Assembly (NCBI GenBank): GCA_030386875.1
Contig: CM059559.1
Location: 4,027,177 to 4,091,176 of the forward strand
Source of the DNA: Morinoia aosen
Taxonomy: Eukaryota; Arthropoda; Malacostraca; Amphipoda; Talitridae
DNA length: 64,000 bases
Direction of reading: 5' to 3'
In this document: in pieces, positions 561 through 63,875 of the stretch
Layout: every line of letters starts with the position of its first letter
How positions within the stretch are numbered: the first letter of the stretch is position 1
Position numbers and translations under genes: made by a program
Notes under the pieces: generated by a model
What the model was told of the DNA's origin: nothing
The model's input: the letters and a program-made list of their open reading frames with translations, nothing else
Database searches by the model: none

Positions 561-815
561 CTCAGAGACGAGTGACTTGAATGACTCAGAGACGAGTGAC
601 TTGAATGACTCAGAGACGAGTGACTTGAATGACTCAGAGACGAGTGACTTGAATGACTCAGAGACGAGTGACTTGAATGACTCAGAAACGAGTGACTTGA
701 ATGACTCAGAAACGAGTGACTTGAATGACTCAGAGACGAGTGACTTGAATGACTCAGAAACGAGTGACTTAAATGACTTAGAGACGAGTGACTTGAATGA
801 CTCAGAGACGAGTCG
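561..815. repeat. 24-bp minisatellite
   Basis: About 10.5 units of 24 bp built on GACTCAGAGACGAGTGACTT. It starts directly after the TTAA of the MITE and ends about 30 bp from the donor of the exon at 845. Because 24 is a multiple of 3 it gives open frames (SHSSL/NDSETSDL-type repeats), which I treat as intronic. Confidence 0.9.
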
Positions 816-844
816 TTTACTGAGCCCACAAGACGTTGGCTCAC

Positions 845-992
845 TGAAGTTAGCTAAGGCACCGGAGTTGGGGTGGTCGAGCCAGGCGCGGATCACGACA
901 AGCAGCGGCTCGCTCGACGCTCCGCAGCGGTCGTCCATGGAGCAGCCGCGGATGCGGAAGAAGTACTCAGTGTTCGAGACGAGGCCTGATAC
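845..992 (-). CDS. Exon: second half of FN3 domain 5
   Basis: Acceptor ATCACACAG and donor TTCA|GTGAGC bound 148 bp (phase 0 in, phase 1 out). The translation has VSGLVSNTEYFFRIRGCSMD followed by DRCGASSEPLLVVIRA and a linker (WLDHPNSGALANF). Two extra Cys (RGC, DRC), six residues apart, sit in the F-G region. The exon leaves in phase 1, so at least one more exon lies left of the window. Confidence 0.9.
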
Positions 993-1660
993 CTGTGTGA
1001 TGCGTGGTTACACATGTAATGGCGTTTTATCTACTAACTCAAAATCCAGGATGCATACTTGCGATTGGAAATGGGTTTCATCACTTTATACTCAAATACG
1101 TAAAATCTTTTCAAGTGAAGTAAGTAAAGGCAAATCTATTTAGAACTTAAATCCTCAAAATGTGTCAAAGACCATTCATTTTCCACTAATCTTTACTTTC
1201 CCATTAAATACAGTCTTACCAGGTACGCAAAATTTCTACTCTATCAACAATTATCACAAATGCTAACTCGTCTTTCAGTCTGGCTTCAAATATTCATTTC
1301 TCGAGTTCTTCTCAGACTCAATGGGCAACAATTTCCTACAGTGACACAGGACCTACATTACTCCCACACTTGAAGCTTCCTGAACAAAAAAGGTTTTTCA
1401 CATCGACGCAGGAAATTAAAAACTTTCTATGCCCTTCTTAACTTACAAACATATGGACGTCACTCCTCTCTGACCTGCCTCCCCAACCCCTATAATTAAC
1501 GTTTGGAGGTATCCAAGAGATTTATAAAGTGCAGCGCTAAGCCACTTACAGCGTTTTTATTCAAAAATTACAAAAATTTTACTGCACGTCAGCTCCTTAT
1601 AATCAAACATGACTCCAACCACTCCCTGAACACACAACGCCGTCTCAGCAGCAGGCGCAC
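993..1660. other. Intron between the two FN3-5 exons
   Basis: About 670 bp of AT-rich intron with no recognised element. Confidence 0.6.
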
Positions 1661-1896
1661 CTTGTACTGGGTTTTGTCAGACATGACGCTGACTTTGGTC
1701 CAAAGCGGCAGCGCAAGACTCTTGTTCTGCGAGTAGAGGAGCTCGTACATGGTTGGCAGTGGAGTGACCTGAGGGGCTGAAGGGGTCTCCGAGGGGTCCT
1801 TTTTGGCAGCGGTGAGGGACGAGGGAGCCTGCCACGTCACCAGCACCGTGCTCGCGTCTAGAGGTCGGTACTGGAGGTCCGTGGGAGCAGCAGGCA
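1661..1896 (-). CDS. Exon: first half of FN3 domain 5
   Basis: Acceptor CTTTGCAG and donor AAG|GTGCGC bound 236 bp (phase 1 in, phase 0 out). It encodes VPAAPTDLQYRPLDASTVLV, TWQAPSSLTAAKKDPSETP and then PTMYELLYSQNK with LWTKVSV. The B-C region is longer than usual for FN3 because of a Pro/Thr/Ser-rich loop of about 20 residues. Confidence 0.92.
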
Positions 1897-2810
1897 CTGC
1901 AAAGTAAATAAATGCACTCAGACCTAGTTCATACCCTCAGCACCAACAGCTGTGGCTAGCCTGTGTTTTACACGTCTTCGTGGTGCCAGACCGGAGCGTC
2001 ACTTCGAACAAGAAAGACACTCGGTTTGAGTTCAATTCCAGTGACTGAGCGCTATATTTAAAAAACCGGCAGTTCCTCCAACGAGAGTACAAAATGCATA
2101 CGACGAGAGCAGAAAACACAGAAGACGTGAAAAGTTTATTATATGACAATCCTTTCTGCTCAATGAGGTTGCACTCCCTTTTCTTAGTTTAAGAAGCGGA
2201 AAACTTATAGGAATTATAACGCAATTGTAAAATGCACTAATTAATCGATATGTTTCTTCACACAAAAGGCCGCACCTGTGCTGGTAAATCGAGCAAAAAT
2301 TACTTTAAAAAAACAGTAAACATTGCTGCACCAGCTTGTTGCATTCTCTGATGTCCGGCAGACTTACAAAGAGAAAATAGCACCAAGAGTTTCAGGAAAA
2401 ATAGTTGCTTTCTGTCCGTCACTGGGCGTTCATTTCCTTTGCGTTTTTTAAAAAATATCTTCAACTGATTATTATCAACGTATATATAAAAGACTTGGCA
2501 GCTTCATATCATCTGATCTGGGCCTATCCCTGAATATTGTTACCACTAAAAAAAGGTTTTATTACAATTATGGAGAAATGTATCCGTAAGTCTTAGGACG
2601 ACCACCATCTTAACAGCATGGCCCCCTTCAAATGAACTTCAGAAACATCATTTCACATTCCAAGTTCTCAAAGAAACTAAAATCCTAACAGGTACTCAGT
2701 ACAAATTTAAAATCGCAAGCCCTTACTTGGGACCATAACCACCTAGGCTCTCGAAAAATCAGCACAGTCAACAACATTGAAAAGCACAGTATTTCCTAGT
2801 AAAAGCTCAC
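1897..2810. other. Intron between FN3-4 and FN3-5
   Basis: About 900 bp of AT-rich sequence. I see no repeat, RNA gene or conserved coding segment. Confidence 0.6.
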
Positions 2811-2941
2811 CTCTGTCAGTGGTGGAGACCTCGACCACAGGGCAGTATGGTCCATACACGTTCTCAGAGATGTGTGCCCGCACGCTGAACTCGTACCAAG
2901 TGAACGGCTTCAAGCCCGTCACCAACACCTCATTCACTATG
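2811..2941 (-). CDS. Exon: second half of FN3 domain 4
   Basis: Acceptor ATCGACAG and donor AGAG|GTGAGC bound 131 bp (phase 2 in, phase 1 out). The translation has VLVTGLKPFTWYEFSVRAHI then PVVEVSTTDR. The first 46 bp of this exon and its acceptor are tandemly duplicated 132 bp upstream. Confidence 0.92.
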
Positions 2942-3158
2942 CTGTCGATGAAAATTTACTGTGAATATGCTTAAAATTTTGGGGTTATATAACAATTAAG
3001 AAGGATAAGTGTAAAAACATACATCAACCAAGTGAACGGCTTCAGGCCTGCCACCAACACCTCATTCACTATGCTGCCACTGAAAATTTACTGTGAATAC
3101 GCTTCAAATTGCGCGGTATATAACAACTAAGAAGGATAAGTATAAAAAACGTACATCA
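2896..3158. repeat. 132-bp tandem duplication covering an exon start
   Basis: Copy A (2896-3026) and copy B (3027-3158) share about 85-90% identity. Each holds the first 46 bp of the FN3-4 exon, its acceptor and about 85 bp of intron. Copy B has an acceptor-like GGCAG at 3074-3078 but the exon is cut off after FTW. Confidence 0.88.
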
Positions 3159-3648: not shown

Positions 3649-3791
3649 CTGTGGATAATGCGCGTGGGTTCGTTAGGGGACGGCGGAATGGTGAGGTAGC
3701 GGACGGTGTAGAAGCTAACGAGTTTTTTGTGGTGGTCTGCAACTCTCCACCACAGCTGCACGCTCGTCTGGCTCTGCACCTCCACCTCCAG
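3649..3791 (-). CDS. Exon: first half of FN3 domain 4
   Basis: Acceptor GCTCACAG and donor CAG|GTAGGT bound 143 bp (phase 0 in, phase 2 out). It encodes LEVEVQSQTSVQLWWRVADH, then VSFYTVRYLTIPPSPNEP and TRIIH. The core Trp and the Y-x-V-R-Y strand C' motif of FN3 are present. Confidence 0.9.
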
Positions 3792-4180: not shown

Positions 4181-4317
4181 CTGTTCGATATCAGGCGAGA
4201 GAGAGGAGCCAAAGTTAATGGAGGAGTTGTGAGCGTGGGTCTGGATGAATTCCACCGTAGGATCGCCATCCCCAGCGAGGTTTATGCCCTTCACCTCCAC
4301 TTGGTACCACCCAGGGC
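4181..4317 (-). CDS. Exon: end of FN3 domain 3
   Basis: Acceptor TTCCACCAG and donor CAG|GTGTGT bound 137 bp (phase 1 in, phase 0 out). The translation starts GPGWYQVEVKGINLAGDGDP, the closing F-G strands of FN3-3, followed by a Ser/His/Asn linker ending SPDIEQ. A SINE-like repeat lies about 100 bp upstream. Confidence 0.9.
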
Positions 4318-5686: not shown

Positions 5687-5822
5687 CTAGCCCGGCGATG
5701 ATGTAGGAGGTGTTGGACGATGGCATGAGGACCGCAGGCAGCCACTCGCCTTTCTCAGGCCGGTAGCGCAGGCTGTAGCCCTCCAGGGCTGCCATGTCGT
5801 GCTTGGCTGGCTCCCATGTCAC
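5687..5822 (-). CDS. Exon: middle of FN3 domain 3
   Basis: Acceptor CTGCGCAG and donor CTAG|GTCTGC bound 136 bp (phase 0 in, phase 1 out). It encodes VTWEPAKHDMAALEGYSLRY followed by RPEKGEWLP and NTSYIIAGL. VTW is the FN3 core Trp. A 29-bp minisatellite begins about 14 bp upstream of the acceptor. Confidence 0.9.
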
Positions 5823-5835
5823 CTGCGCAGTGTCA

Positions 5836-6121
5836 TGCTCACTTAGTCTTGTACTCAAGTGTTCTACTCGCTTAGTCTTGTACTCAAGTGTTCTACTCAC
5901 TTAGTCTTGTACTCAAGTGTTTTACTCACTTAGTCTTGTACTCATCAAGTTTATTACTCACTTAGTCTTGTACTCATCAAGTGTATTACTCACTTAGTCT
6001 TGTACTCAAGTGTTCTACTCACTCAGTCTTGTACTAAAGTGTTCTACTCACTTAGTCTTGTACTCACTTAGTCTTGTACCCATCAAGTGTATTACTCACT
6101 TAGTCTTGCACTCAAGTGTTG
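5836..6121. repeat. 29-32-bp minisatellite next to an acceptor
   Basis: About nine units built on CTTAGTCTTGTACTCAAGTG. The array reaches to about 14 bp from the FN3-3 acceptor at 5823. Confidence 0.9.
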
Positions 6122-7111: not shown

Positions 7112-7435
7112 CTTGACAGCCCAGCTGCCCTTGCTATCACGGCCGGCAGTGCTGTTGAGCCCCACCCAGTAGACGGTGAGGTTCACGAGGGGAGGCAGAG
7201 GCAGGGGAATCGGTAGAGGCGCTGGCGTCCTGTAGTTGTCTTCTCTCTGTGGGTTGCGCCTTTCGAAGTCTAAGCCATTCCTAGGGTACTCCTCCCTCTC
7301 AGGCAGCCGCACATTCTTCCACACAAGGTGAGCTCCCTCCGGGTAGCCCATTGAGTTGCCCGCTAGCACGCGCACCGAGTAGTTTGTGCCGGGCTGGAGG
7401 CCGGTTAGCATCACCTCGTGCACGTTTGGACTCGT
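7112..7435 (-). CDS. Exon: end of FN3 domain 2, linker, start of FN3 domain 3
   Basis: Acceptor ATTTCAG and donor AAG|GTGAGC bound 324 bp, phase 0 at both ends. It encodes LTGLQPGTNYSVRVLAGNSM (strand F of FN3-2), a charged then Pro/Leu-rich linker (PAPLPIPLPLPPLVNLTVYW), and the first strand of FN3-3 ending GSWAVK. Confidence 0.92.
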
Positions 7436-8199: not shown

Positions 8200-8490
8200 A
8201 TATAATCTACTTCTACATGCTTACATGCTTGATTCGTTCACGCACACGTACTTTATATCTATATATGTCTATATGCTCTATTTCTATATGCCTACATGTT
8301 CCATTCTTCAAAGTATCAACAATTCATTTCTACATGCCTAAATGTTCCATTCTTCCAAGTCTCAGCAATTCATTTCTACATGCCTACATGTTCCATTCTT
8401 CCATGTCTCAGCGATTCATTTCTACATGCCTACATGTTCCATTCTTCCAAGTCTTAACGATTCATTTCTACATGCCTACATGCTTTGTTA
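8200..8490. repeat. 46-bp minisatellite next to a donor
   Basis: Four clear 46-bp units start TACATGCCTACATGTTCCAT at about 8285, 8331, 8377 and 8423, with decayed units before 8285. The array ends about 27 bp from the FN3-2 donor at 8517. Confidence 0.88.
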
Positions 8491-8517: not shown

Positions 8518-8675
8518 ATCCTTGACGTTGTAGTAGTGGATCTTGCGCTGCTTCCACTGGACCTTGTAGCCTATGATGGTGCCCCGCGCCACGGCGGGGG
8601 AGAGAGGCGACCATTGCACCAGCAGCTCTGTCGCCGACACCGCCTTCAGCTTCATCTTTGGCACACCCGTTGGGA
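8518..8675 (-). CDS. Exon: first half of FN3 domain 2
   Basis: Acceptor CCCGCGCAG and donor GAT|GTAAGC bound 158 bp (phase 1 in, phase 0 out). The translation has VPKMKLKAVSATELLVQWSP then GTIIGYKVQWKQRKIHYYNV, strands A to D of an FN3 domain. The exon lacks an ATG and shows only through splice-phase matching. The LINE inserted in the upstream intron ends only 78 bp from its acceptor. Confidence 0.9.
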
Positions 8676-8752
8676 CTGCGCGGGAGGTTTACGTAATAAG
8701 AAAGCATGAACACACTAGAATTGTGCTATATTATATACTAGAATTAAGTTTC

Positions 8753-11749
8753 TCACCCCCCAATGAAGGGGGTGAGAGAGGTCGAAAGACCACTCAAACC
8801 CTAGTACTAGGATCTTTGAATGTAAGGGGGTGTGGAAGTAGAGCAACTGAGAGTAAGAAGGAGGAGATCGGAAGAATGATGGTAAACCGGAAGATGGATG
8901 TATTGGCCTTGAGTGAGACGAAATTGAAGGGTAGTGGTGAGTTGATGTTTGGGAGTGTGGGAGGGAGAGTGTCTGAAGTACGTGGGGGACATGCAAGAGA
9001 GGGTGTGGCTATACTATTGAGTGTAAGAATCAGAGAGAAAGTAGTTGAATGGGGTGAGGTGTGATCAAGAATAATGTGGGTACGAGTGAAATGGGGGGAA
9101 GAGTCCTGGGTGTTTTTGAACGCGTACGGACCGGTATCGGAGAGGAGTGGGGAAGACAGAGAGGAGTTTTGGGAGAAATTGTCCGAGTGTGTGGCTAGAG
9201 TGGGGAGTGGTTGTAGAGTTGTGGTGATGGGGGACCTGAATGCAAGAGTGGGTGATGAGGTGGTGGATGGTGTTGTTGGTAAGTACGGAGTAGCTGGGGT
9301 GAATGAGAGTGGGGATTTCTTGGTGGGGTTATGTGTGGAGAGTGAGTTAGTGGTTGGGAATAGTTTGTTTTAGAAAAAAAGTATAAACAAGTATACATAT
9401 GTGAGGACGAATGGAGGTGTGATAGAGGAGAGAGCATTGATGGATTATATTTTGGTTAGCAGGGGAGTGATGGGTCGTTTGCTCGATGTGCATGTGTTCC
9501 GTGGTGAGATGAATGGGATTTCGGATCATTATTTGGTGGAAGGAAAGCTGAGAGTTGGTGGAATGTGGGGAGGTGTTAAAAGGAGGAGTGGAAGGGAGGT
9601 GTTAAATGTAAGCAAGTTACATGATTCTGAGCGTGAGTGTGAGTATCAGGAGAAGATGAAAGTGGAGTATGGGAGGGTGAAGGAAAGTGAGGTGGGTGGA
9701 GTGGAAGGGGAATGGAAGCTGTTTAAAGATGCGGTGGAAAAATGTGCAAGGGAAGTGTGTGGGGTAAGGAAGGTTGGAGGGGGGATTAGAAAGGGGAGTG
9801 AATGGTGGAACGGAGAAGTAGGAGCGGCTGTGAAAAGAAAGCGGGGAGCATTCGAGAGGTGGCTGCAACGAGGCAACCAGCAAAATTTTGAAGAGTATAA
9901 GGAGAGGAAGAAAGAGGTACAAAGAATGGTAAGGAGAGCGAAGAGGGCGGCGGATGAGGAATGGGGGAGGAAGTTGGGAGGGGATTTCATGGAGAGAAGG
10001 AAGGTTTTCTGGAAGGAAGTGAAGAGAATTAGGAAGGGTCAGGTGGAGAATGAGGCAAGAGTGAAGGATACAAATGGTAGGCTGCTAGTAGAGAGTTGTG
10101 ATGTGAGAAAGAGATGGGCGGAGTATTTTGAGGAACTGCTGAACATGAGGGATGATAGGATTGCGAGAGTAGTAGCTGTTGGAAGTGATGTTAGAATACC
10201 TGTGTTTGGTGAAGTGAATAGAAGTCGAATAAGAAGGGCAGAGGTGAGATGTGCGTTGGATGAAATGAAAAATGGGAAAGCTCCAGGTTTGGATGGCTGC
10301 ACGGTTGAATGTCTAAAGAAAGGAGGAAATGTGGTTGTAGAATGGTTGGTGCGTTTATTAAATGTGTGTTTCGAGGCTAGTAAAGTGCCAGTTGATTGGA
10401 GTAGCGCGTGCGTAGTTCCGTTGTACAAGGGGAAAGGTGACAGGTATGAGTGCAGTAATTCTAGGGATATAAGTCTACTGAGTGTCGTTGGGAAGCTGTA
10501 TGGAAGAGTGTTAATTGGAAGAGTGAGAGTGTTGACGGATCGTTTGCTTGCTGAAGAACAGTGTGGTTTTAGGTGTGGTAGAGGTTGTGTGGATCAAATG
10601 TTTGCTGTGAGGCAGGTGAATGAAAAATACTTAATAAAGGGAAAGGATGTATATTGGGCATGTATGGATCTAGAGAAGGCGTATGACAGAGTGGATCGCG
10701 AGGCTCTATGGCAAGTGGTAAGTTTGTATGGAGTGGGTGGGAGACTGTTGAATGCGATCAAGAGTTTCTACATTGATAGCAGAGCATGTGTGAGAGTAGG
10801 GAATGAGGTGAGTGAATGGTTCCCAGTTGTGACAGGTGTGAGACAGGGATGTGTGATGTCGCCGTGGTTGTTTAATTTGTTTATGGATGGTGTGGTGAGA
10901 GAAGTGTATGCCAGAGTGTTGGGAAAAGGTGCGCAGTGGGTGGGACGAAATGGTATGTATTGGGAAGTGTGTCAGCTGTTGTTTGCAGATGATACAGCGC
11001 TTGTGGCTGATTCAGAGGAAAAACTGAGGAGACTGGTTGCAGAGTTTGATAGCGTGTGCTAAAGGCGGAAATTGAGGGTAAATGTGAATAAAAGGAAGGT
11101 GATGAGATGTTCAAGAGGTGGAGTGTTTGGAACTTTGGATGTGAGGTTGAATGAGGAAGTTTTAGAGGAGGTAGAGCATTTTAGGCACCTCGGGTCGGAT
11201 GTGACTGTTAAGGATAGTATGGAAGTAGAAGTGAAGCATCGAGTGAGTGAAGGTTGTAAGACATTGGGTGCAATGAGGAAAGTTTTTGAATGCAGGAGTT
11301 TGAGTATGAATGCTAAGAGGGGACTGTATGAAAGTTTGATTGTGCCAGTTTTGTTGTATGGAGCAGAGTCCTGGGGGTTGAGAGCAGCTGAGAGGAGGAA
11401 GTTGGATGTGTTTGAGATGAAGTGTTTGAGGAGCATGTATGGAGTAACTAGAAGAGATAGGATCAGGAATGAGTTGGTTAGGGGGCAGACGGGTGTTATC
11501 AAAAAGTTGAGCAGGCGAGTGGATGAAAGAGTGCTTGGATGGTTTGGGCATGTTGAAAGAATGAATGTTGAGCGGCTGGTGAAAAAGATATATATGTCGG
11601 AAGTGAGTGGTCTTCGAGCGCGAGGTAGACCACGGATGAGTTGGATGGATGGGGTGCGACGTGCTTTGTATGAGAGGGGTCTGACTGTGGACGTGGCGAG
11701 AGGGATGGCTGCGGACAGAAGTGAGTGGGGGCAGTGTATAAGGAGGTAA
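8753..11749 (+). pseudogene. LINE endonuclease-reverse transcriptase ORF with three in-frame stops
   Basis: One reading frame runs through the whole element, broken only by TGA at 9062, TAG at 9371 and TAA at 11060. In order: endonuclease start (LGSLNVRG), MGDLNARVGD, ALMDYIL and the catalytic ISDHY motif; RT blocks KAPGLDG, EEQCGFRCGRG, CMDLEKAYDRVD, GVRQGCVMSPWLF and the catalytic LLFADDTALVADS; then LYGAESW and the RTE-type tail LGWFGHVERM with RARGRPRMSWMDGV. It is about 1000 codons, normal for RTE. No frameshift in 3 kb suggests a fairly recent insertion. Confidence 0.93.
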
Positions 11750-12032
11750 TTTTATTTTTGACGCGTTACTGGAAGCTTCCCGCGTGTGATGGGGTTGACC
11801 TGTCATGTGCGGGGGGGAGGGGCTGCACTCAATGAAGCGGTCGGGGTAAACCAGCTGTTGCTGTCGGGCCTGACTGTGGAAGGTGGTTGTGCTGGGCTGC
11901 TGCTGATCCTGGCAGTTCAGGTGCGGCCAGTGCTGCCTCTCTCGCCTCCTAGTGACTAAGTGTGGTGATTGTGGCCTGCTGTCGGCTACCCTCCCATAGG
12001 GAGGATAAGCCCGGTATATGTATGTATGTATG
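8753..12032 (+). mobile_element. RTE-like non-LTR retrotransposon (LINE), nearly full length
   Basis: A 3.28-kb element flanked by a 14-bp target duplication TAGAATTAAGTTTC (8739-8752 and 12033-12046). It ends in a (TATG)n tail at about 12016-12032. It carries an AP endonuclease followed by a reverse transcriptase and a C-terminal segment of RTE/BovB type. RTE elements are about 3.2-3.3 kb, so little is missing. It lies in the intron between FN3-1 and FN3-2, antisense to the host gene. Confidence 0.93.
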
Positions 12033-13303: not shown

Positions 13304-13456
13304 TCTCCTCTCCAGTGCGGAAGACGATGGGGTCGGAAGGGTCGCTAGCGACGTCTGTGAAGGCGCGGATGTACACAGAGTAGTTGGTGTTGAGGGCGAG
13401 GTCTTTGAACACGTGAGAGGTGTTGCGCACCACGATCTGCTGCTCTGCCGTGGACC
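13304..13456 (-). CDS. Exon: second half of FN3 domain 1
   Basis: Acceptor GTGGGCAG and donor GAGA|GTGAGT bound 153 bp, phase 1 at both ends. It encodes FKDLALNTNYSVYIRAFTDV and a following SDPIVFRTGEE, the L-x-P/N-x-T-x-Y strand F signature and closing strand of FN3-1. Confidence 0.9.
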
Positions 13457-15427: not shown

Positions 15428-16186
15428 GTACGTTTCAAAGTACCATACAATACGTTAGATGGTACAATAGTACGTTAGATTGGTAGAAGGTACAATAATG
15501 CATCAAGATACCTAACGTACAACAGTAAGTTAGGTATTGTACGATAGAGGGTAAAATAGAAGGTACGTTATGTACGTTAGAAGGTACAATAGAAGGTACG
15601 TTATTGTGCCTTAGAAGGCTCAATAGAAGGTACGTTTTTGTGCGTTAGAAGGCCCAATAGAAGGTACGTTATTGTGCCTTAGAAGGCTCAATAGAAGGTA
15701 CGTTATTGTGCGTTAGAAGGCCCAATAGAAGGTACGTTATTGTCCGTTTGAAAGTACAATAGAAGGTACATTATGTACGTTAGGCCGCCGTCACACGGAG
15801 ATCAAATGGTAACGTTTCTTCATAATTTTCTACAGTCGGCGGCACCAATCGGTCTGCCCAGAGCCCCGAAGCCGTCAGATTTCAGCCTTAGTTAACCATA
15901 GTATGACTAAGCTTGTCCCAAACTAAGGCTGAAATCTGACGGTTTCGCGGCGCTGGACAGACCGATTGGTGCCGCTGACTGTATAAAATTATAATGAAAC
16001 GTTAACATTTGGTCTCCGTGTGACGGAGGCCTAAGAAGGCACAATAGAAGGTACGTTATTGTACATTAGAAGGCCCAATAGAAATTACGTTATTGTACGT
16101 CAGAAGGCGCAATAAAAGGTACGTTATGGTACGTTAGAAAGTACAATAGAAGGTACAATATGTACGTTAGAAGACAAAATAGAAGG
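15428..16186. repeat. Degenerate 34-bp minisatellite, interrupted by a MITE
   Basis: Repeats of AGAAGGTACGTTATTGTACG type run from 15428 to 15786 and again from 16035 to 16186. The gap is filled by the inverted-repeat element at 15787-16033. Confidence 0.85.
15787..16033. mobile_element. MITE with long terminal inverted repeats
   Basis: The left arm GGCCGCCGTCACACGGAGAT pairs with the right arm ending GTCTCCGTGTGACGGAGGCC. The arms extend over about 110 bp each, almost to the centre. It lies inside the older minisatellite and splits it. Confidence 0.85.
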
Positions 16187-16421
16187 TAGCCATCGTACGT
16201 CAGAAGGCCCAACAGAAGGTACGTTATTGTACGTCAAGAGGCCCAACAGAAGGTAGCCATCGTACGTCAAGAGGCCCAACAAAAGGTAGCCATCGTACGT
16301 CAAGAGGCCCAACAAAAGGTAGCCATCGTACGTCAAGAGGCCCAACAGAAGGTAGCCATCGTACGTCAAGAGGCCCAACAGAAGGTAGCCATCGTACGTC
16401 AAGAGGCCCAACAGAAGGTAC
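16187..16421. repeat. 33-bp minisatellite next to a donor
   Basis: About seven units built on CAAGAGGCCCAACAGAAGGT, nearly identical to one another, ending about 33 bp from the FN3-1 donor at 16454. It looks like a recent amplification of the neighbouring degenerate repeat. Confidence 0.9.
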
Positions 16422-16454: not shown

Positions 16455-16615
16455 CCAGCTGGCTGATGTGGAGGGTGTACGCCTGAGGGCTGGGCACGTG
16501 GTAGGAGGCCCAGGTGATGAGCACAGAGGTGGACGACAGGAGCTGGTAGCGCAGATCGCGCGGCGGCTTGGGGCTGTCGGACGACGAGTTCACGTACATG
16601 TGTGCCCAGCTTGAC
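16455..16615 (-). CDS. Exon: first half of FN3 domain 1
   Basis: Acceptor GCGAGCAG and donor CTGG|GTGGGT bound 161 bp (phase 2 in, phase 1 out). The translation has SPKPPRDLRYQLLSSTSVLI then TWASYHVPSPQAYTLHISQL, the typical Pro-rich start and core Trp of an FN3 domain. The donor was chosen because phase 1 is needed by the next exon. A 33-bp array starts about 35 bp into the following intron. Confidence 0.9.
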
Positions 16616-18647: not shown

Positions 18648-18907
18648 GCGTATCCCGCATCGTTGAGTGCGACACACTGGTAGAGCGCAGAGTCAGCAGT
18701 GACGCTGTTGGCGAAGATGAGCTGGTTCCTCTTCATCTGGATGCGCCCCGTCTGCGTAACAAGCTTGCCGTTCTTGTACCACAGCACGGAGGGGTGCGGC
18801 CACCCCGACACCGAGCAGTTGAGGCGCGACGTCTTGGCCATGAGGGTCACCAGGTTCTTAGGAGGGTCCTCAATCTTGGGTGGGATATTGAGCACAACCT
18901 CCGTCTC
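18648..18907 (-). CDS. Exon: Ig domain 4
   Basis: Acceptor CCCTTCAG and donor ACGC|GTGAGT bound 260 bp (phase 0 in, phase 2 out). It encodes nearly all of Ig4 in one exon: ETEVVLNIPPKIEDPPKN, then SRLNCSVSGWPHPSVLWYKN, then ADSALYQCVALNDAGYA. Both Cys, the Trp and the D-x-A-x-Y-x-C motif are present. Confidence 0.92.
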
Positions 18908-19722: not shown

Positions 19723-19865
19723 CTGCCTGTGGTCCGTGCCGGCAATGGAGCACGCGTAGAAGCCCTCGTGGGCTTCAGTGAGGCCCACCAAACGCAGGTT
19801 GCCCTGGCCCAAAAAGGCGAAGCTGGGCCCCGGCTCAACTCGGGACCAAGGGCCGTCCACAGTGC
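19723..19865 (-). CDS. Exon: end of Ig domain 3
   Basis: Acceptor TTTCAAG and donor CAG|GTACGT bound 143 bp (phase 1 in, phase 0 out). The translation includes GQGNLRLVGLTEAHEGFYAC and then SIAGTDHRQ, the E to G strands of Ig3 with the second Cys. Confidence 0.9.
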
Positions 19866-20903
19866 CTTGAAAGTCAAATCAATCAATAAGAAAATCAGTG
19901 AGAATAGACGTAAAGAACTATCATCTTCCATTGGAGACTCAACAGTCACAGCACAAACAACAGTTTGAAATCTTATGTCATCATTCATACGCAGTCTCCA
20001 GGAGCATCAACGGAATATGTCAGATAAAAAGTACGTGAAACAAAAACCATACAAAAATTTATGTACCTGTGTAATGGCCAAAAAATTCTATCAATACTAA
20101 CTCGAGATTCTGACCTCCACCTGCGTTAGAGGTCATCCGCATGTTATGAGAGAATGTCACTCTGAAATGACTTAAAACAACTTCTTTTGAAAAGATTAAC
20201 ATCCTACCTTAAACAACGGAGTACGACAGCAGAGAATTCCCTCTAAAGTTCAACTATCACCGCTTTCCTTACAATGATAATGAATACTAGTGCTATGTAA
20301 CGAATTTCTTCTGAATGCACATTCCCACACACGTGAATTTCTAATTATTTCTTTTCGTTCTCTTTCACCCTTTACAGAAATATCTGAAACCAGTTTGCCC
20401 AATCTCCCCGTCTTATATCGTACAATGACATAACTTCATGTTCCACACACACAGTCCCCGACTAATATTATTTGACACCTCAATTCCAAGCACAGAAAAA
20501 TGGCAGGAAAATTATAATAAGCTAAGAATTCTTTTTAGTGCACATTGTGAAAAGACGCTATCTAGCACAGAATGGTGCATAACGAGAACAAATCTTTCCG
20601 ATGTGGCCTCATAACCCTATAAAAATAATGAGAAGAAGACGATGCATCTTTATCCACGTGAAAAAAAAACTTTTTTCAGCACAGAGAGCATAACGAGAAC
20701 AAAACATTTTGCAGTACCCTCATACGCCTACAAAAATAAGAATAAAACGATGCATCTGCTTTCAGGTAAAAAAACGATTTTCAGCACAGAGAGTGACGCA
20801 TAACGAGAACAAAACATTTTGCAGTACCCTCATACGCTCCAAACATTAGAAGAATCAAACGACGAAACACACACAGGGCGACCGGGCAGATCTCGTCACT
20901 CAC
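19866..20903. other. Intron within Ig3
   Basis: A roughly 90-bp segment with CAGCACAGAGAG and AACGAGAACAAAACATTTTG is repeated imperfectly about three times between 20560 and 20840, approaching the Ig3 donor at 20903. Confidence 0.6.
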
Positions 20904-21145
20904 GAGCACGCTGCCAGAGGAGGCGGGGGAGGGGCAGGCCGGTGGCGAAGCACTCGAGGGTGAGGTTGTCGCCCCTGTTGGCGGTGTGCTGGCGGTGGTA
21001 CGGGGACAGGAACGCCGCCGCGTTGCTGGCCGAGTCCGACAGGGAGTCCGGAGACAGGGCGGGCAGGTCGGGCTCAGGCTCCACCGCCACCGGGATGGCC
21101 ACCGAGCTCCGCGTCTTGTTGGCCAGGGCGTTGTGGGCCACGCAT
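20904..21145 (-). CDS. Exon: end of Ig domain 2 and start of Ig domain 3
   Basis: Acceptor CACCTCAG and donor GCTC|GTGAGT bound 242 bp (phase 2 in, phase 1 out). It opens with CVAHNALANKTRSSVAIPV, closing Ig2, then an acidic/Ser-rich linker, then GDNLTLECFATGLPLPRLLW with the first Cys and the Trp of Ig3. A 22-bp GC-rich array abuts the acceptor. Confidence 0.9.
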
Positions 21146-21149: not shown

Positions 21150-21600
21150 GGTGGTGGTAGGGTGATGGTGAGGTGATGGTGAGGTGGTGGTGGGGTGATG
21201 GTGAGGTGGTGGCGGGGTGATGGTGAGGTGGTGGCGGGGTGATGGTGAGGTGGTGGCGGGGTGATGGTGAGGTGGTGGCGGGGTGATGGTGAGGTGGCGG
21301 CGGGGTGATGGTGAGGTGGCGGCGGGGTGACGGTGAGACGGTGGAGAGGGAATGGTGAGGTGGTGGCGGGGTGACGGTGAGACGGTGGAGAGGAAATGGT
21401 GAGGTGGCGGCGGGGTGACGGTGAGACGGTGGAGAAGAAATGGTGAGGTGGTGGCGGGGAGGTTTTGGTGAGGTAGTGGTGGCGGGGTGACGGTGAGATG
21501 GCGGCGGGGTGATGGTGAGGTGGTGGCGGGGTGATGGTGAGACGGTGGAGGGACAATGGTGAGAAGGTGGAGGGGCAATGATGAGGGGACGAAAAGGTTA
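21150..21600. repeat. 22-bp GC-rich minisatellite abutting an acceptor
   Basis: About 20 units of GATGGTGAGGTGGTGGCGGG type with variant blocks (GACGGTGAGACGGTGGAG). It touches the acceptor of the Ig2/Ig3 exon at 21146. The minus strand is a C-rich polypyrimidine-like tract, so the array itself supplies the acceptor context. Confidence 0.9.
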
Positions 21601-22065: not shown

Positions 22066-22134
22066 CTGTACAAGCCGGAGTCGCTGGCCTGCAGCGGTGC
22101 GATCTGCAGCACTCCTATTTCTGGCACCGTCAAT
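22066..22134 (-). CDS. Exon: middle of Ig domain 2
   Basis: A 69-bp micro-exon with acceptor CTGTCCAG and donor CAG|GTGAGC, phase 2 at both ends. It encodes LTVPEIGVLQIAPLQASDSG and LYR, the E-F strands up to the residue before the second Cys. A 98-bp imperfect tandem duplication lies just upstream in the intron. Confidence 0.9.
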
Positions 22135-22316
22135 CTGGACAGAGATGGAGCACATGGAAATGTTTTGCAGCGTTCGGTCATTTCATCAGATGGGGGAAAG
22201 GCTGTAGTGATTTCTTTCAGCTGACTGCAATATAAACAGAAATGGAGCACATGGAAATGTTTTGCAGCATTCGGTTATTTCATCAGGTGTGGGAAAGGCT
22301 GCAGTGATTTCTTTCC
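22131..22316. repeat. 98-bp tandem duplication at an acceptor
   Basis: Two copies share GGAGCACATGGAAATGTTTT and flanking sequence, offset by 98 bp. The first copy reaches to the Ig2 micro-exon acceptor; the second lacks a usable AG at the equivalent place. Confidence 0.85.
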
Positions 22317-23429: not shown

Positions 23430-23586
23430 CTGTCATCAGGTGTGAGGGGCGCCCCATCTCTGAACCAGGTGAGCTGCGCAGGAGGGTAGCTGTCGACGGC
23501 GCAAGAGAAGCGCGCTGCTCCCCCCATCGCGACTTGGCCTTCACTGGCAGGCTTGGACACGCCCATTCTGAAGTTGCGGCTCAAAT
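23430..23586 (-). CDS. Exon: first half of Ig domain 2
   Basis: Acceptor ACCGCCAG and a weak donor CAG|GTTATC bound 157 bp (phase 1 in, phase 2 out). The translation has GGAARFSCAVDSYPPAQLTW followed by FRDGAPLTPDDR, that is strands B to D with the first Cys and the core Trp. The weak donor is supported because phase 2 joins cleanly to LTVPEIG in the next exon. Confidence 0.9.
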
Positions 23587-23790: not shown

Positions 23791-24400
23791 TTATTTTCTG
23801 GCCATCAACAAAGGGGCTTCTTGCTGATGAGTGCCCTGATTCAGCACTCAGGGGGCAAAGCTAAATACTGGCTTCTTTGCCCCCTGACTGACTTCTTCGT
23901 CACTTCTTTCAATACTGACCAGAGTTAAAATGACTCAACCAAACCAAATATGAATTGATTGATTGAAAATTCTGATGAAGTGTTCGTAGAAGTATCTTAT
24001 AAACAGAGGAAATTTTTCCAAGTGCTTGACATGTTCTCCGTCAGGTTATTTTATGAAATTGATATTAGTACCAATTATTGACACTAATTGATATTAGTGA
24101 ATATTGAAATTGATATAAGTGATACTGATATGAGTTTTAAAAATATAATGAAAATTTAGGTAAATCGGTCGAACCTTTTTCTTACATCAATCAGCCAAAA
24201 CAGAAGAGGGTCTTTTACAAAGACCTGAAATATTTTCGGTCTTCTAATGCTGCAGTGTGTAGTAGGTTTCCCATTTTCAAAGTTGATTACCACAATTGAC
24301 TTTAAATTTGAATTGAATATTGAACTTCACTTCAAGTCATCGCAGTTAACGGGTTAAAGCAAAACCACATGGCCGCTACCGGGTCGGCTGCGTCACTCAC
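23791..24400. other. Intron between Ig1 and Ig2 exons
   Basis: AT-rich intron. A MITE-like right end with GTTAACGGGTTAAAG (about 24300-24357) resembles the end of the 334-554 element and sits about 45 bp from the Ig1 donor. Confidence 0.5.
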
Positions 24401-24509
24401 TTGCGACCTTGAGGCGTATGGGTGGTCCGGAGATGTTGCCGATGGCCGTGTGCACCACACAGCGGTACTCGCCCTCGTCTGACATGCGCCCGCCGCGCCG
24501 CACCACCAC
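24401..24509 (-). CDS. Exon: end of Ig domain 1
   Basis: Acceptor GGTGGTGCAG and donor GCAA|GTGAGT bound 109 bp (phase 0 in, phase 1 out). It encodes VVVRRGGRMSDEGEYRCV and then the G strand (SGPPIRLKVA), completing Ig1 with the classic D-E-G-x-Y-x-C pattern. The intron immediately upstream is a 5.4-kb minisatellite whose units contain the same CTGGTGGTGCAG acceptor core. Confidence 0.9.
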
Positions 24510-24510
24510 C

Positions 24511-24883
24511 TGCACCACCAGTGATACTCTGTTACTGGCTGCCTGCACCACCAGTGATACTCTGTTACTGGCTGCCTGCACCACCAGTGATACTCTGTTA
24601 CTGGCTGCCTGCACCACCAGTGATACTCTGTTACTGGCTGCCTGCACCACCAGTGATACTCTGTTACTGGCTGCCTGCACCACCAGTGATACTCTGTTAC
24701 TGGTTGCCTGCACCACCAGTGATACTCTGTTACTGGCTGCCTGCACCACCAGTGATACTCTGTTACTGGCTGCCTGCACCACCAGTGATACTCTGTTACT
24801 GGTTGCCTGCACCACCAGTGATACTCTGTTACTGGCTGCCTGCACCACCAGTGATACTCTGTTACTGGCTGCCTGCACCACCA
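24511..24883. repeat. 33-bp minisatellite carrying an acceptor core
   Basis: About 11 units, nearly identical, whose minus strand reads CTGGTGGTGCAGGCAGCCAG and continues TAACAGAGTATCA. CTGGTGGTGCAG is the same sequence as the true Ig1 acceptor at 24510. The unit is 11 codons and is in frame with the exon. Confidence 0.95.
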
Positions 24884-27800
24884 GATACACGCGGTAACTC
24901 GCCAGACCACTGCCTGCACCACCAGACACACGCGGTAACTCGACAGACCACTGCCTGCACCACCAAATACACGCAGTAACTCGCCAGACCACTACCTGCA
25001 CCACCAGATACACTCGGTTGCTCGCCAGACCACTCCCTGTACCACCAGACACACACGGTAACTCGCCAGACCACTCCCTGCACCACCAGATACACGCGGT
25101 AACTCGCCAGACCACTCCCTGCACCACCAGATACAAGCGGTAACTCACCAGATCACTCCCTGCACCACCAGATACACGCGGTAACTCGCCAGACCACTGC
25201 CTGCACCACCAGATACACACGGTAACTCGCCAGACCACTCCCTGCACCACCAGATACACGCGATAACTCGCCAGACCACTCCCTGCACCACCAGATACAC
25301 GTGGTTCCTTGCCAGACCACTGCCTGCACCACCAGATACACGTGGTTACTCGCCAGACCACTCCCTGTACCACCAGACACACGCGGTAACTCGCCAGACC
25401 ACTCCCTGTACCACCAGATACACGTGGTTCCTTGCCAGACCACTGCCTGCACCACCAGACACACGCGGTAACTCGCCAGACCACTGCCTGCACCACCAGA
25501 TACACGCGATAACTCGCCAGACCACTGCCTGCACCACCAGACACACGCGGTAACTCGCCAGACCACTGCCTGCACCACCAGATACACGCGATAACTCGCC
25601 AGACCACTGCCTGCACCACCAGATACACGCGATAACTCGCCAGACCACTGCCTGCACCACCAGACACACGTGGTAACTCGCCAGACCACTGCTTGCACCA
25701 CCAGATACACGCGATAACTCGCCAGACCACTGCCTGCACCACCAGACACACGCGGTAACTCGCCAGACCACTGCCTGCACCACCAGATACACGCGGTAAC
25801 TCGCCAGACCACTGCATGCACCACCAGATACACGCGGTAACTCGCCAGACCACTGCCTGCACCACCAGATACACGCGATAAATCGCCAGACTACTGCCTG
25901 CACCACCAGATACACGCGGTAACTCGCCAGACCACTGCCTGCACCACCAGATACACGCGGTAACTCGCCAGACCACTCCCTGTACCACCAGACACACGCG
26001 ATAACTCGCCAGACCACTCCCTGTACCACCAGATGCACGCGGTAACTCGCCAGACCACTCCCTGTACCACCAGATACACGTGGTTCCTTGCCAGACCACT
26101 GCCTGCACCACCAGACACACGCGGTAACTCGCCAGACCACTGCCTGCACCACAAGATACACGCGATAACTCGCCAGACCACTCCCTGTACCACCAGACAC
26201 ACGCGGTAACTCGCCAGACCACTCCCTGTACCACCAGATACACGTGGTTCCTTGCCAGACCACTGCCTGCACCACCAGACACACGCGGTAACTCGCCAGA
26301 CCACTGCCTGCACCACCAGATACACGCGATAACTCGCCAGACCACTCCCTGTACCACCAGACACACGCGGTAACTCGCCAGACCACTCCCTGTACCACCA
26401 GATACACGTGGTTCCTTGCCAGACCACTGCCTGCACCACCAGACACACGCGGTAACTCGCCAGACCACTGCCTGCACCACCAGATACACGCGATAACTTG
26501 CCAGACCACTCCCTGTACCACCAGACACACGCGGTAACTCGCCAGACCACTCCCTGCACCACCAGATGCACGCGGTAACTCGCCAGACCACTGCCTGCAC
26601 CACCAGACACACGCGGTAACTCGCCAGACCACTGCCTGCACCACCAGACACACGCGGTAACTCGCCAGACCACTCCCTGCACCACCAGACACACGCGGTA
26701 ACTCGCCAGACCACTGCCTGCACCACCAGACACACGCGATAACTCGCCAGACCACTGCCTGCACCACCAGATACACGCGATAACTTGCCAGACCACTCCC
26801 TGTACCACCAGACACACGCGGTAACTCGCCAGACCACTCCCTGCACCACCAGATGCACGCGGTAACTCGCCAGACCACTGCCTGCACCACCAGACGCACG
26901 CGGTAACTCGCCAGACCACTCCCTGCACCACCAGATGCATGCGGTAACTCGCCAGACCACTGCCTGCACCACCATATACACGCGGTAACTCGCCAGACCA
27001 CTGCCTGCACCACCAGATACACGCGATAACTCGCCAGACCACTCCCTGTACCACCAGACACACGCGGTAACTCGCCAGACCACTCCCTGCACCACCAGAT
27101 GCACGCGGTAACTCGCCAGACCACTGCCTGCACCACCAGACACACGCGGTAACTCGCCAGACCACTGCCTGCACCACCAGATACACGCGATAACTCGCCA
27201 GACCACTCCCTGTACCACCAGACACACGCGGTAACTCGCCAGACCACTCCCTGTACCACCAGATGCACGCGGTAACTCGCCAGACCACTCTCTGTACCAC
27301 CAGATACACGTGGTTCCTTGCCAGACCACTGCCTGCACCACCAGACACACGAGGTAACTCGCCAGACCACTGCCTGCACCACCAGATACACGCGGTAACT
27401 CGCCAGACCACTGCCTGCACCACCAGATACACGCGATAACTTGCCAGACCACTCCCTGCACCACCAGACACACGCGGTAACTCGCCAGACCACTGCCTGC
27501 ACCACCAGATACACGCGATAACTCGCCAGACCACTCCCTGTACCACCAGACACACGCGGTAACTCGCCAGACCACTCCCTGCACCACCAGATGCACGCGG
27601 TAACTCGCCAGACCACTGCCTGCACCACCAGACACACGCGGTAACTCGCCAGACCACTGCCTGCACCACCAGATACACGCGATAACTCGCCAGACCACTG
27701 CCTGCACCACCAGATGCACGCGGTAACTCGCCAGACCACTGCCTGCACCACCAGACACACGCGGTAACTCGCCAGACCACTGCCTGCACCACCAGATACA

Positions 27801-29947: not shown

Positions 29948-30874
29948 ATTAATTAGGCAAACAAACCTACCATTACCTTCAGCATCAACTAAACTAGGAA
30001 CTCGTTCGCCACACCCCTGTCTGCAACACAAGACTTGATCAGCTTGCGGAAGGGGAATGCCCAATCTAACAACAACAGAGCTGGTAGCGTGTGGTGCTCA
30101 AACCGAAACCAATCAAATATTGCCCATCCAAAAAATGGTCTCAAAATACTCATCACTTTCACTGCATCATGAGCCATTTGTAATGCACGGCTGCCACAGA
30201 GTGCTTAGTGTACTGGTGATGTTAACTGCTAAGAATTGTATACAGTTAATCATAGCTTATGACGTACGTTACTGAGAATAGTTGTAGCCCAATTCATAGC
30301 CATGCACTATTTACATCACACTCAAAAGGAACACTTCTACAGACTGAGCAGCTCGCTGTAACTGATTCCCGATTCAAGCTACATGGAAGCACAGCATAAC
30401 TCAACAATTCAAAGATTAAAGGTTCCAAATTAGAAACGAGCTAACATTCGCAGCTCGCACCAGCGATCCATCATCCCAAACGCCCACACTCAGCACCACA
30501 CGCACACCAGACGTGGCGGTAGACCGTCGTTGAGACACTGACCAGTTTTCTCTACAGAAATATTCCTGACGTAAATATAGTTAAGAGGAGAGGTAACAAA
30601 TTAGCACTAACTGAATACAAGAGAACTGAGCATATTTTTCCCTTACGCTCAATATTTTTACTGTGAATGTTATGAAAATGCACCGGTTAAAAAGGAAATA
30701 CCACACTGTATATTCTTTCCGTCAACATTACGGCACTATTCGTTTATTTTGTTGCGACCCTTCAAAAAATTTCGGATAAACAACAATGAGGCTACTAAAT
30801 CGTCCATTAAAAAAATTCCTCCACGCCTGAAGCAGAACTTGTATATCACACAGAAGACCACAGCGAGTCAGGCA
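29948..30874. other. Intron within Ig1 between the giant array and the exon at 30955
   Basis: About 900 bp without recognisable elements. Confidence 0.5.
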
Positions 30875-30930: not shown

Positions 30931-30954
30931 CGAGGAACACTTGGCCCAACGCAC

Positions 30955-33772: not shown

Positions 33773-34709
33773 CTGCACGTGCCGGATGAACGTCAGCTCG
33801 TGCACGTCACGGGATACATGTCAATTGATGCACGTCAACTGATGTACGTCAGGGGATACGCAACAAGTGATACACATGAGATATAGAAGTGATGCACACC
33901 AGAAACTACACTTCGAGTGATGCATGGCATGGCATGGCATTGTATGCACATCAAGTGACACACATCCATCACACTATAACGCTAACATGGAAAAGTACAT
34001 CCTAAACACGGAATACATAAAAAAATGACATCAATGTCGTTATTGGGTCTAAACATTGCGAGAGTTGTAAATCTTACGATTTATTTACTGTGATAATTTA
34101 AATGCATTGAAGAATTTAAATCGACTTTTTACCTAATCAATTTGCGCAATTTCACCCTCATGGCAGAGCGCATACGAAAAATGCTAAGTAAAACTAAATT
34201 AAAATGTTCTCACATTTTTCCGGGGAAAAATAGTCCACGGTCGGGAAATGACTTATCATAATGCGCACTTCTCATTGAAAAAGCAGCCTATATCCCCTCG
34301 CACACACACACACACACACATGCACGTCAAGATAACTGCTGATTACCGACTCGTGTACAGCCGTTTGACAAAATTAATACATAACCCTTTTCGGACACAT
34401 GTTATCGAATCTATAAAAAAAATTGGCAATAGAGATCATTGAGCGTCCCGTAAGCCAGCACGGTTGTCAGAGGATGGACGATAGTTCCAGCCTGCTGATG
34501 TGTCCATGGTATTAGCGTTGAGTTGCTTACACGAGTAGTTAGCGATGAAGTGGTGCAACTGTTGGCTAATGTGAGCGTATGCTACGTACCTGCTAGAGTA
34601 GGGACCAACGTGGAATGCAACTGTTGACTAGTATATTCGCCTCCTTAGCTCAAAAGACGATACTGAAATAGGGCATAGGCTAATATGTTTACCTACTGAG
34701 CAGTCAAGT
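33773..34709. other. Distal part of the presumed first intron
   Basis: Contains imperfect repeats of TGATGCACGTCA type (33790-33960) next to the Ig1 exon acceptor and a (CA)n run near 34300. No gene seen. Confidence 0.5.
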
Positions 34710-38749: not shown

Positions 38750-39997
38750 CCGGGTGGCCCAGCGAAGTGTGGACAAATACATGTTTTTTTCGTTATATGA
38801 AGTCCAATCAATACAACTCATGCACCAAATAAAGAGACATGTATTGCCTTCAACAACATTCGAGAATTATTCAATATATCCTCCTTTCTCCTTGATAACC
38901 TGGCGGAGACGTGGGATCACCTGATCACACGCGGTACGCAGTTTCAGGGTCAATTTCTGGCCAAGATTTGGTCAGTTTTGCTTCAGAAGCCCCGCACTTG
39001 AGGAGGATACAGCGCAGGACTTCTGCTCCAAGATAAACCATATCCCAAAGTCCATTGGATTTAAATCAGGAGAAGATGGAGGCCATAGTTCCTTGTGCCA
39101 AAACGCCTTGAAATCGTCTGTGCACCAGTCCTGGACCAATCTGGCTAGGTAAGAGGTTGCTCCATCTTGCTGAAGTGTAATTCCTTTAATTTTAGTGACT
39201 TTCCTTGCCCAAGGAACAACTTCATCCTTTAACGTCTTCAGATGAACTTGTTTGTTGATTTTGATACCAGCCTCGATGAAAATCAAAAGGGGTTTTAAGA
39301 ACTGTGGGCGTAATCCCAGCCCACACCAGTACCGAAGCTGGTTTTTGTCTCCTGAATGAAGTTCGACGCTCAACAGACACTGAATATTTAAATTTAATCA
39401 AAATCCGATCATTTTTGCTGTTGTTTATGGCTTGAACGGCGAATAATTTCTCATCCGTCCAGAGAACTTCTAGCTGCGCACCATCAAGGAGCTTATTCAG
39501 AAGAATCTTTCGAACCTCTTTGGGTTCGACCTTATGATCCCGTACCAGCACCCTATGAACTGTAGAATGGCTAAGATGTGCCTCTTTAGCAAGTTTTCTT
39601 GTGCTCCTTCCAGGATTCAGTCGCAACTTTTCTCCAATATTCTTAATGAGTTTTTTGGTTCTTACGGACCTCTCTGGGGTCCTCCTGACCTTTGGTAAGC
39701 AGCTACCTGTCTCTCTGAACCTTTTTACTGCCTTGTATACACCGGAGCGACTCAAAAACCCTTTCAAAACCTTGAAAATCTTAGCAATGAATAGCCCAAT
39801 AAGACAATGAGTTTCAATGATCTCATTTAAAGTCTACCATATATAGGTGTAACTTTAATTTCCCGGAAAAGTTATAGAATATTAGTAATTTAAGATGATT
39901 ATACTATAAATCTGTAATAAATACAAATAATTTAGTGATCGGGAAATGTGTTTAAGTTTAACATGAAATTTAGTCTACACTTCGTTCGGTCACCCGG
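38750..39997 (-). mobile_element. Tc1/mariner superfamily transposon (maT-like)
   Basis: A 1248-bp element flanked by TA (38748-38749 and 39998-39999). Imperfect terminal inverted repeats of about 28 bp read CCGGGTGGCCCAGCGAAGTG at the left and CCGGGTGACCGAACGAAGTG at the right. It carries a mariner-type transposase on the minus strand. Confidence 0.92.
38972..39830 (-). pseudogene. Mariner/maT-like transposase, frameshifted
   Basis: The N-terminal part has paired helix-turn-helix sequence (GVYKAVKRFRETGS; STRKLAKEAHLSHSTVHRVL) and the first catalytic Asp (VLWTDEKLF). The second (LQQDGATSY) and third (SPDLNPMDFGIW) catalytic Asp are in another frame, with the switch near 39370. About 37 residues separate the second and third Asp, which suggests DD37D (maT). 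No clear N-terminal Met. Confidence 0.9.
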
Positions 39998-55089: not shown

Positions 55090-55093
55090 TTAA

Positions 55094-56856: not shown

Positions 56857-56860
56857 TTAA

Positions 56861-62100: not shown

Positions 62101-62769
62101 GAGGGCCTCCTTTGTGCACTATCTGGGCAGATAACCGCACAACACCTCCAGATAGCGCGAACCTCTCACTGTCTCTCCCTCCGTCGCCTCTCCACCAGCC
62201 GCCATTGCCACCATTTCCATAGAAGTTCCCCCTAAAGTTACATCAAGGAACCTTACTCCACATCTTGGCCACATCACTCACGGCTGTTCCTGCGAATTTT
62301 AAACAAATACTATGTGGTAATTATGGAGCTGTAGACCCGATCCTTTCTTATCTCCCTGCATCGACGACCTTGACCTTGGAATCGTCAGGAGAACTAACAA
62401 GTTCGCTCGCAGACGATGCTCAACACTTTGACTGCGACGTGAGCCACCGGTGGTCACTGAGGGAGTTTTCGTAATGCTGCTCACAGAACAGTAGTCACCA
62501 AGTCAATTTTCATAAATACTAAATCAAAACTAAATAAAAGTACGATTTAGTTAATGATTACTATTGTCAACATTGCTTACTAGAATTGACGACTAGGACG
62601 TCGTTTTCACAGTATAGCTGAGAGAAAAATTAGGGTTGGAGGGCATAAATGAAACCTCAATTCTTGGGCTAAGTGACACGGCTCTCGCTGATATCGACAT
62701 GAGATACGGGCGGTCGAATGCTAAACCGCAGAAATTACAAAGGGGCTAATGCGGAATACATTTTGTTGA
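59154..62769. other. First-intron sequence, no recognised features
   Basis: About 3.6 kb of mixed composition. I found no gene, RNA or mobile element that I could support. Confidence 0.45.
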
Positions 62770-62945
62770 CGCTGCTCCGAAAGAACAGAGTGCACGAAGC
62801 TGAATACATGATGCATTTTTTCTTCAAGATATTCCCACACTCCTACAACGCTCACGCGTAAAGAACACTGCTTTAGAGCCGTGCTCTTCATACGCACGAT
62901 CCTCAACATGTACGAAGAGCTGCGCAAAAACGCGTACATTACTTT
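62770..62945. repeat. 175-bp dispersed repeat, copy 2
   Basis: Second copy of 58976-59153, about 90% identical by eye. Confidence 0.85.
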
Positions 62946-63120
62946 GTCATCACTGAAGTACAGGCAGCTGAAGAGGGATAAGTTTCATTTGTCGTCCGCT
63001 ACTACTGGCCAAATGCAAAGCTATAGACTACACAATTGTCTCAAGTTAACTCTACCGCGCTACATACTGTACAAGTAGAGCGCCTGAAGGAACACGCAGC
63101 TTTGAGGAAGTAACCTCTCG

Positions 63121-63389
63121 TCACGGTAGAGGAAACAAGGTAGAGTCATTTTATGGGGTAAAATACACCTCTTGTTCGGCTAGCCAATAGATAGGCTTTA
63201 TTTCAAACAAACTTAATGACGTCACTAAAACGTCTTGTCCTCAGGCCAATAGTGGAGATGGATTGGGGGTAGCAGTGCTACCAGATGCAATATGAGCGCT
63301 GCTATTGGTTCGATGTCGTGACGTCAGCAAACCCACACTGACGTCAAAAAAAAGACTGGTTTGACACTACCTTGTTTCCTCTACCGTGA
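63121..63389. mobile_element. MITE with GAGGAAACAAGGTA termini, intact copy
   Basis: Perfect 23-bp inverted ends (TCACGGTAGAGGAAACAAGG and complement), 269 bp, with CTCTCG at both flanks (63115-63120, 63390-63395). It contains AATGACGTCAC and CGTGACGTCAGC, palindromic CRE-type sites, and several CCAATAG boxes. Confidence 0.9.
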
Positions 63390-63671
63390 CTCTCGTATAC
63401 GGAGTGCACCACCAAAACCCTGGCATTTCGCTCAGTATCACTGATACGCTCCTCCTTTCAAGAAGAGAATCCGATGCAAAATAGCTCAATAATTACAGAG
63501 AGAGAGCCATATAATACCAGGGTTGGGGCTTCTGAAGCTCGGTCCACACGCGCGTACGGGCGCAGCGAAAGGCCGAAGTGAGGGCTGCGAGAGCCTGTTT
63601 GGGTGCTGGTCTGCGGGACGCGGTCGTGTGCCGCTGTGGCGCATAGGTGAGAGCGTGCTGAGTGTCCGTGC

Positions 63672-63875
63672 AGGCTGCTGACCTGCAGTGAAGCCTACTA
63701 ACCTGCAGTGAAGCATACTGACCTGCAGTGAAGGCTACTGACCTGCAGTGAAGGCTACTGACCTGCAGTGAAGGCTAATGACCTGCAGTGAAGGCTACTG
63801 ACCTGCAGTGAAGGCTACTGACCTGCAGTGAAGGCTATTGACCTCAAGTGAAGGCTACTGACCTGCAGTGAAGGC
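63672..63875. repeat. 20-bp minisatellite carrying a donor
   Basis: About 10 units of ACCTGCAGTGAAGGCTACTG. On the minus strand each has CACTGCAG|GTCAGTAG, a good donor, so the exon ending at 63863 is followed by a ladder of possible donors spaced 20 bp apart. Confidence 0.9.

Follow-up and report, generated by a model that had tools for sequence, protein, structure and literature searches.

Tandem repeat arrays at the splice sites of an Ig/fn3 gene of Morinoia aosen resemble the boundary minisatellites of lancelets

Results

Gene model and arrays at its splice sites

The window (the whole 64 kb stretch of Morinoia aosen DNA that was analysed, C4:4027177-4091176, from a genome whose 29 contigs total 1.99 Gb) carries on its minus strand a gene for an Ig/fn3 protein, the exons of which lie between positions 845 and 63928 and many of the splice sites of which are abutted or overlapped by tandem repeats. 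Nineteen exons join into a single stop-free frame of 1,326 codons: E1 (63863-63928), E2 (33528-33772), E3 (30955-31917), E4 (24401-24509), E5 (23430-23586), E6 (22066-22134), E7 (20904-21145), E8 (19723-19865), E9 (18648-18907), E10 (16455-16615), E11 (13304-13456), E12 (8518-8675), E13 (7112-7435), E14 (5687-5822), E15 (4181-4317), E16 (3649-3791), E17 (2811-2941), E18 (1661-1896) and E19 (845-992). The agreement in phase is partly by construction, since phase was kept in view when the E11 donor and three of the acceptors (E8, E10 and E11) were picked, and the sole evidence for E1 is its splice signals, phase and open frame. In the product Pfam recognises Ig domains and five fn3 stretches. 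Its middle part has receptor phosphatases, Roundabout, contactins and DCC as relatives in the PDB, and judged from the order of the domains the closest family would be DCC/protogenin-like. A 418-residue part of the product has seven matches in the genome, all of them inside the window. The first Ig-like domain, in E3, seems to have its B and C strands separated by a Ser/Pro-rich stretch of ~300 residues. The membrane-helix exon of the gene (locus L023) does not continue the phase of E19, so that one more exon may be located between the two; the likely acceptor of the membrane-helix exon is 16 bp from the end of an array.

Tandem Repeats Finder (TRF) returned 46 rows, which merged into 26 arrays with a period of at least 7 bp and a total length of 12,276 bp. 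Counting a splice site when an array overlapped it or lay no more than 35 bp away, 11 of the 38 splice sites in the window had an array (TRF on the plus strand); the next arrays follow at 49 bp and then at 184 bp. Run on the reverse strand, TRF gave 10 of 38, the array by acceptor 33772 shifting to 47 bp. The sequence-only reading had named eleven places where a repeat lies on or beside a splice site, and a repeat is indeed present at each, found by TRF or, at 33527, by comparison of copies; the splice positions given there match our model to within one base, and our analysis adds one site, acceptor 33772, with a weak array 12 bp away.

Four splice sites lie within the repeat itself. The E1 donor (63862) is crossed by a 20-bp × 10.4 array (63668-63875) in which CAGGT occurs nine times. 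At the E2 donor (33527), a 36-bp exact repeat on the minus strand is found by copy comparison in two copies 84 bp apart, the first (33523-33558) with the donor of the model and the second (33439-33474) with a decoy donor (33443); this repeat is real yet absent from the TRF output, and so stands outside the TRF count of 11. The E4 acceptor (24509) is held in the unit of a 33-bp × 11.4 array (24509-24884) at distance 0, and TGGTGGTGCAG from this unit is present 12 times. Finally, a 132-bp duplication (2895-3158; TRF and copy comparison) extends across the E17 acceptor (2941) and includes 47 bp of the exon, 44 of the first 50 exon bases matching the copy 132 bp away.

Two further arrays come close to acceptors. 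A 22-bp × 19.6 array (21150-21586) lies 4 bp from the E7 acceptor (21145), the CAG of which is provided by the final unit, and a 97-bp duplication (22139-22315), with a TTGCAG of its own in the upstream copy, stops 4 bp short of the E6 acceptor (22134). The remaining TRF arrays within the limit are a 24-bp × 10.5 intronic array (561-813) 31 bp from the E19 donor (844), a 29-bp array (5838-6114) that comes to within 15 bp of the E14 acceptor (5822), a 46-bp × 4.4 array (8280-8482) 35 bp from the E12 donor (8517), a 33-bp × 7.2 array (16181-16420) 34 bp from the E10 donor (16454), a 24-bp × 3 array (30859-30931) 23 bp from the E3 donor (30954), and the weak 14-bp array (33785-33851, 67% matches) by the E2 acceptor. 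Beyond the limit, a 111-bp × 2.5 array (20577-20854) lies 49 bp from the E7 donor (20903), where reverse-strand TRF gave no array. An exon-copy test found exon sequence missing from the arrays at the E3, E12 and E19 donors and at the E2 and E14 acceptors, and the E10 donor was borderline, its weak likeness between exon end and unit being equalled by 7-10 of 300 shuffles.

The 33-bp array at the E4 acceptor is extended into the same intron by a 41-bp × 124 array (24869-29933), in which GGTGGTGCAGG occurs 95 times. On the minus strand (24393-29925) the 41-bp array has three frames that run for kilobases without a stop, the longest reaching 1,734 codons; gene finders could mistake this artefact for coding sequence.

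Excess over chance

The excess of arrays at splice sites in the window is well beyond chance, as the sequence-only reading had supposed. When the arrays were shuffled inside their own introns, a mean of 0.98 sites and a maximum of 6 were reached and none of 4,000 placements attained the observed 11; shuffled over all introns, the mean was 0.58 and again 0/4,000 reached 11. Rotating the gene model, which preserves the spacing of arrays and exons and was scored on edge distance only, gave 10 observed sites against a mean of 2.2 (2/4,000, a figure to which near-zero rotations can add), and leaving out E1, E2 and arrays scoring below 100 it gave 8 of 34 against 1.5 (4/4,000). The window was selected because of this excess and is thus a biased sample of the genome.

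The unit sequences (TRF consensus) are unrelated to one another and differ by site across several introns, also as the sequence-only reading had put it. A search of the genome with three of the arrays returned a single match for the E12-donor array and, elsewhere, just diverged matches for the E19-donor array (no more than 74%) and the E14-acceptor array (no more than 68%); with one unique and two diverged-only arrays, the arrays look like local products and not like one dispersed element. Introner-type elements were set aside, as the units are unrelated and share no common element.

Arrays in other genes

As a sample from outside the window we used 57 exons (114 splice sites) from matches to myosin-head and SNF-symporter domains, with edges set by frame and splice score and arrays called by TRF; three of 60 loci (L054, L056 and L057), in which the match is one long single-exon match, were excluded. 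Relative to the array density at 100-1,300 bp, these sites had five arrays at 0-40 bp plus four overlapping where 2.0 were expected, and 13 at 0-100 bp plus four overlapping where 4.9 were expected. For a placement null, overlapping loci were merged into 41 regions of ~3 kb (150,913 bp, 70 arrays) and random positions were drawn outside exons, which gave nine observed sites within 40 bp versus 3.9 (19/3,000) and 17 within 100 bp versus 8.1 (2/3,000). This null leaves no room for overlaps, and the shortness of the regions inflates it. On inspection of the nine sites within 40 bp, seven hold (L045, L048, L065, L070, L072, L081 and L083) and the splice sites at L061 and L074 are doubtful.

Two of these are plain mirages, the name given in lancelets to minisatellites that duplicate exon-intron boundaries: at the L065 donor (C7:2081806) a 183-bp unit contains 69 bp of exon together with the donor, and at the L072 acceptor (C19:38142741) the acceptor is contained in an array of 54 bp × 5.8. 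Units that span the junction, with exon sequence and splice signal, were thus found at four window sites, L065 and L072, and not at most of the others. At L084, a 41-bp × 8 array adjoins or spans the donor of a carnitine-acyltransferase exon, and in a 2.5-kb stretch with three exons the one array is located at a donor. Many fn3 matches in the genome are near-identical copies ~0.75 Mb apart (L001/L002, L004/L005 and L013/L020, on C10 near 14.0 and 14.8 Mb; also C15 68.9-69.8 Mb), which may be real duplications or haplotypes retained in the assembly.

Other features of the window

The E11-E12 intron holds a LINE-like retroelement (8700-11750, plus strand) with endonuclease-like and reverse-transcriptase-like open frames, and at 38972-39833 on the minus strand two overlapping frames resemble a mariner-type transposase in pieces, both named by eye. 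A search of the window against Rfam gave no match at the gathering score. The sequence (TTAGG)6 matches the genome 6,769 times in forward and 8,723 times in reverse orientation, and a control sequence has no match; TTAGG is the arthropod-type telomere repeat.

Discussion

The arrays in the window are real, beyond chance in this gene and probably, in weaker form, general in the genome. We favour, with some confidence, the reading that they are mirage-like minisatellites: junction duplications that are tolerated and expand in the intron, with a birth bias at exon edges. Short tandem duplications of ~20-130 bp would be born at or beside exon-intron junctions; where the duplicated piece includes the splice site, the exon-side copy would still be used and the others would become intron, so that the duplication would be tolerated. 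Slippage or unequal exchange would then multiply the copies within the intron and keep them alike, giving an array that reaches up to the exon or overlaps it, and more such births would occur at exon edges than elsewhere, with GC-rich exon DNA as one candidate seed. We infer both the correct splicing of the gene and this order of events. The two-copy duplications located at 2941, 22134 and 33527 are the earliest, young stage of the series, and with their position exactly at junctions they lend weight to the suggestion of the sequence-only reading that duplications start at exon-intron edges.

Several results weigh against this reading. Comparison of exon end and unit at the 11 array sites gave three clear matches, one weak and seven none. 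Tolerance alone, assuming evenly falling duplications of which the junction-spanning ones are tolerated, gives 1.6 of the 38 window sites (P of 11 or more = 1e-6); it explains why arrays may contain splice sites, not how many, and additional births at exon edges are therefore required. Outside the window, the inspection covered just the nine positives and the other 105 sites stand as called, and the excess is modest, between ~2-fold and 4-fold according to the null used. Arrays are commoner at the sites of the window gene than in the myosin/SNF sample (11/38 versus 9/114, Fisher P 0.002), and none of 16 sites of eight distinct fn3 exons, left after 12 of 20 loci had been removed as near-copies, has an array within 40 bp. 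The excess across the genome that the sequence-only reading set as its check is weakly supported, being seen at the 114 myosin and SNF sites and absent at the fn3 sites; a genome-wide excess at splice sites likely exists, modest and weaker than in the window gene.

The alternative that survives best is that GC-rich DNA, not splicing, seeds the arrays: minisatellites would form by GC-rich islands, and exons are the islands of these genes. Base composition fits, with exons at 61% GC, introns outside arrays at 41% and arrays at 53%, and arrays away from exons tend to have one GC-rich flank (0.527 versus 0.449 expected for 14 window arrays, 0/3,000; 0.478 versus 0.436 for 47 arrays in other loci, P 3e-4). 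Where non-exonic flanks reach at least 60% GC, an array lies within 36 bp at 130 of 960 positions, versus 1-2% of positions below 50% GC. The relation is not graded, however, since 0 of 2,600 positions at 55-60% GC have an array so close, and the 130 positions stem from just four array edges, of which some at least face a gap between two arrays. In other loci the GC step itself is not significant (P 0.12), and exons that escaped recognition may be among the GC-rich islands there; several arrays near splice sites, moreover, have AT-rich units (GC 0.35-0.46). We consider this explanation unlikely as a replacement for a bias towards junctions, while giving it more weight than those that follow.

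Arrays might instead accumulate beside exons through survival and not birth, as a deletion that removes an exon-adjacent array would also destroy the splice site and be selected against. On birth-death reasoning this would act on any unit, at donors and acceptors alike, which is what is observed. Survival should leave older arrays near junctions, and these are no less homogeneous than others, which speaks against it: the median match is 91% near and 86% far in the window (P 0.26) and 85% near and 86% far in other loci (P 0.83), a test of array age weakened by homogenisation. The same comparison, in which no measurably greater age (lower likeness of units) was seen for arrays near splice sites, goes against the proposal of the sequence-only reading that selection removes repeats elsewhere. 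Two-copy duplications occur at junctions too, and deletions hundreds of bases long would give a broader peak than the one observed, so that we regard survival as improbable.

We give little credence to the idea that the arrays serve splicing, through exon definition in long introns or regulation of alternative splicing, and are retained by selection. There is a precedent in C. elegans, where minisatellites are reported to be over-represented near multiply alternative exons (CeRep25B, PMC4039745), but in the window gene the units have nothing in common, arrays occur at donors as well as acceptors, and an ordinary pyrimidine tract is displaced by the array at 24509 and 5822. Coincidence, that is one gene in a repeat-rich genome chosen as striking, is very hard to credit: the window was chosen for the feature, and outside it there is a moderate excess in one sample and none in the fn3 exons, yet the Poisson probability of 11 or more with a mean of 0.98 is ~8e-9 and clear junction-spanning arrays are found in other genes.

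If the reading as mirage-like minisatellites is right, junction-seeded duplication may be one route by which introns grow without harm to the gene. A wider claim, which we put forward only tentatively and hold to be doubtful at present, is that exon-intron junctions are birth hot spots of tandem duplication throughout the genome, that introns keep receiving copies of splice sites and that mirages, far from being a lancelet oddity, are a way in which animal introns grow in general. Were this true, introns would lengthen and be supplied with decoy splice sites as a source of new introns or exons.

Comparison with known systems

The sequence-only reading knew of no described process that would place repeats in this way; such a placement has been described in lancelets, where minisatellites at exon-intron boundaries go by the name of 'mirages'. 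The published accounts describe them in Adh3, the globins BflGb6 and BflGb9, troponin C and PGBD5, report normal splicing, with length and somatic instability in Adh3, and call their origin unclear (PMC3087553, PMC3902484). As these accounts present them, the mirages share with the window gene repeats at both 5' and 3' boundaries and unrelated units, and their units of 10-160 bp, many with AG/GT signals, likewise have their counterpart at some sites here (PMC3087553, PMC3902484). The window gene differs in that many of its arrays merely abut the junction without a copy of the exon and in that the host is an arthropod. The open-licence literature that we searched yielded no report of mirages outside lancelets. 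In lancelets they are known from single genes, and the finding of about ten in one gene from another phylum makes the question countable: whether duplications are gained faster at exon edges, whether GC content or chromatin is the reason, and whether and how the right copy is chosen among identical ones.

Human genes in segmental duplications offer a second comparison, where minisatellites of ~30 bp at exon-intron boundaries are described as altering the exon-intron structure; in the account of these recent paralogs coding parts are modified or novel introns made, whereas in the window gene the coding sequence looks unchanged (PMC2812944). The third is the model of intron gain by tandem duplication of splice signals, proposed for ATP2A1 and potato RdRp. 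Splice signals are copied in both cases, as far as the model is laid out in that source, but there a new intron arises, and here existing introns lengthen (PMC4974935).

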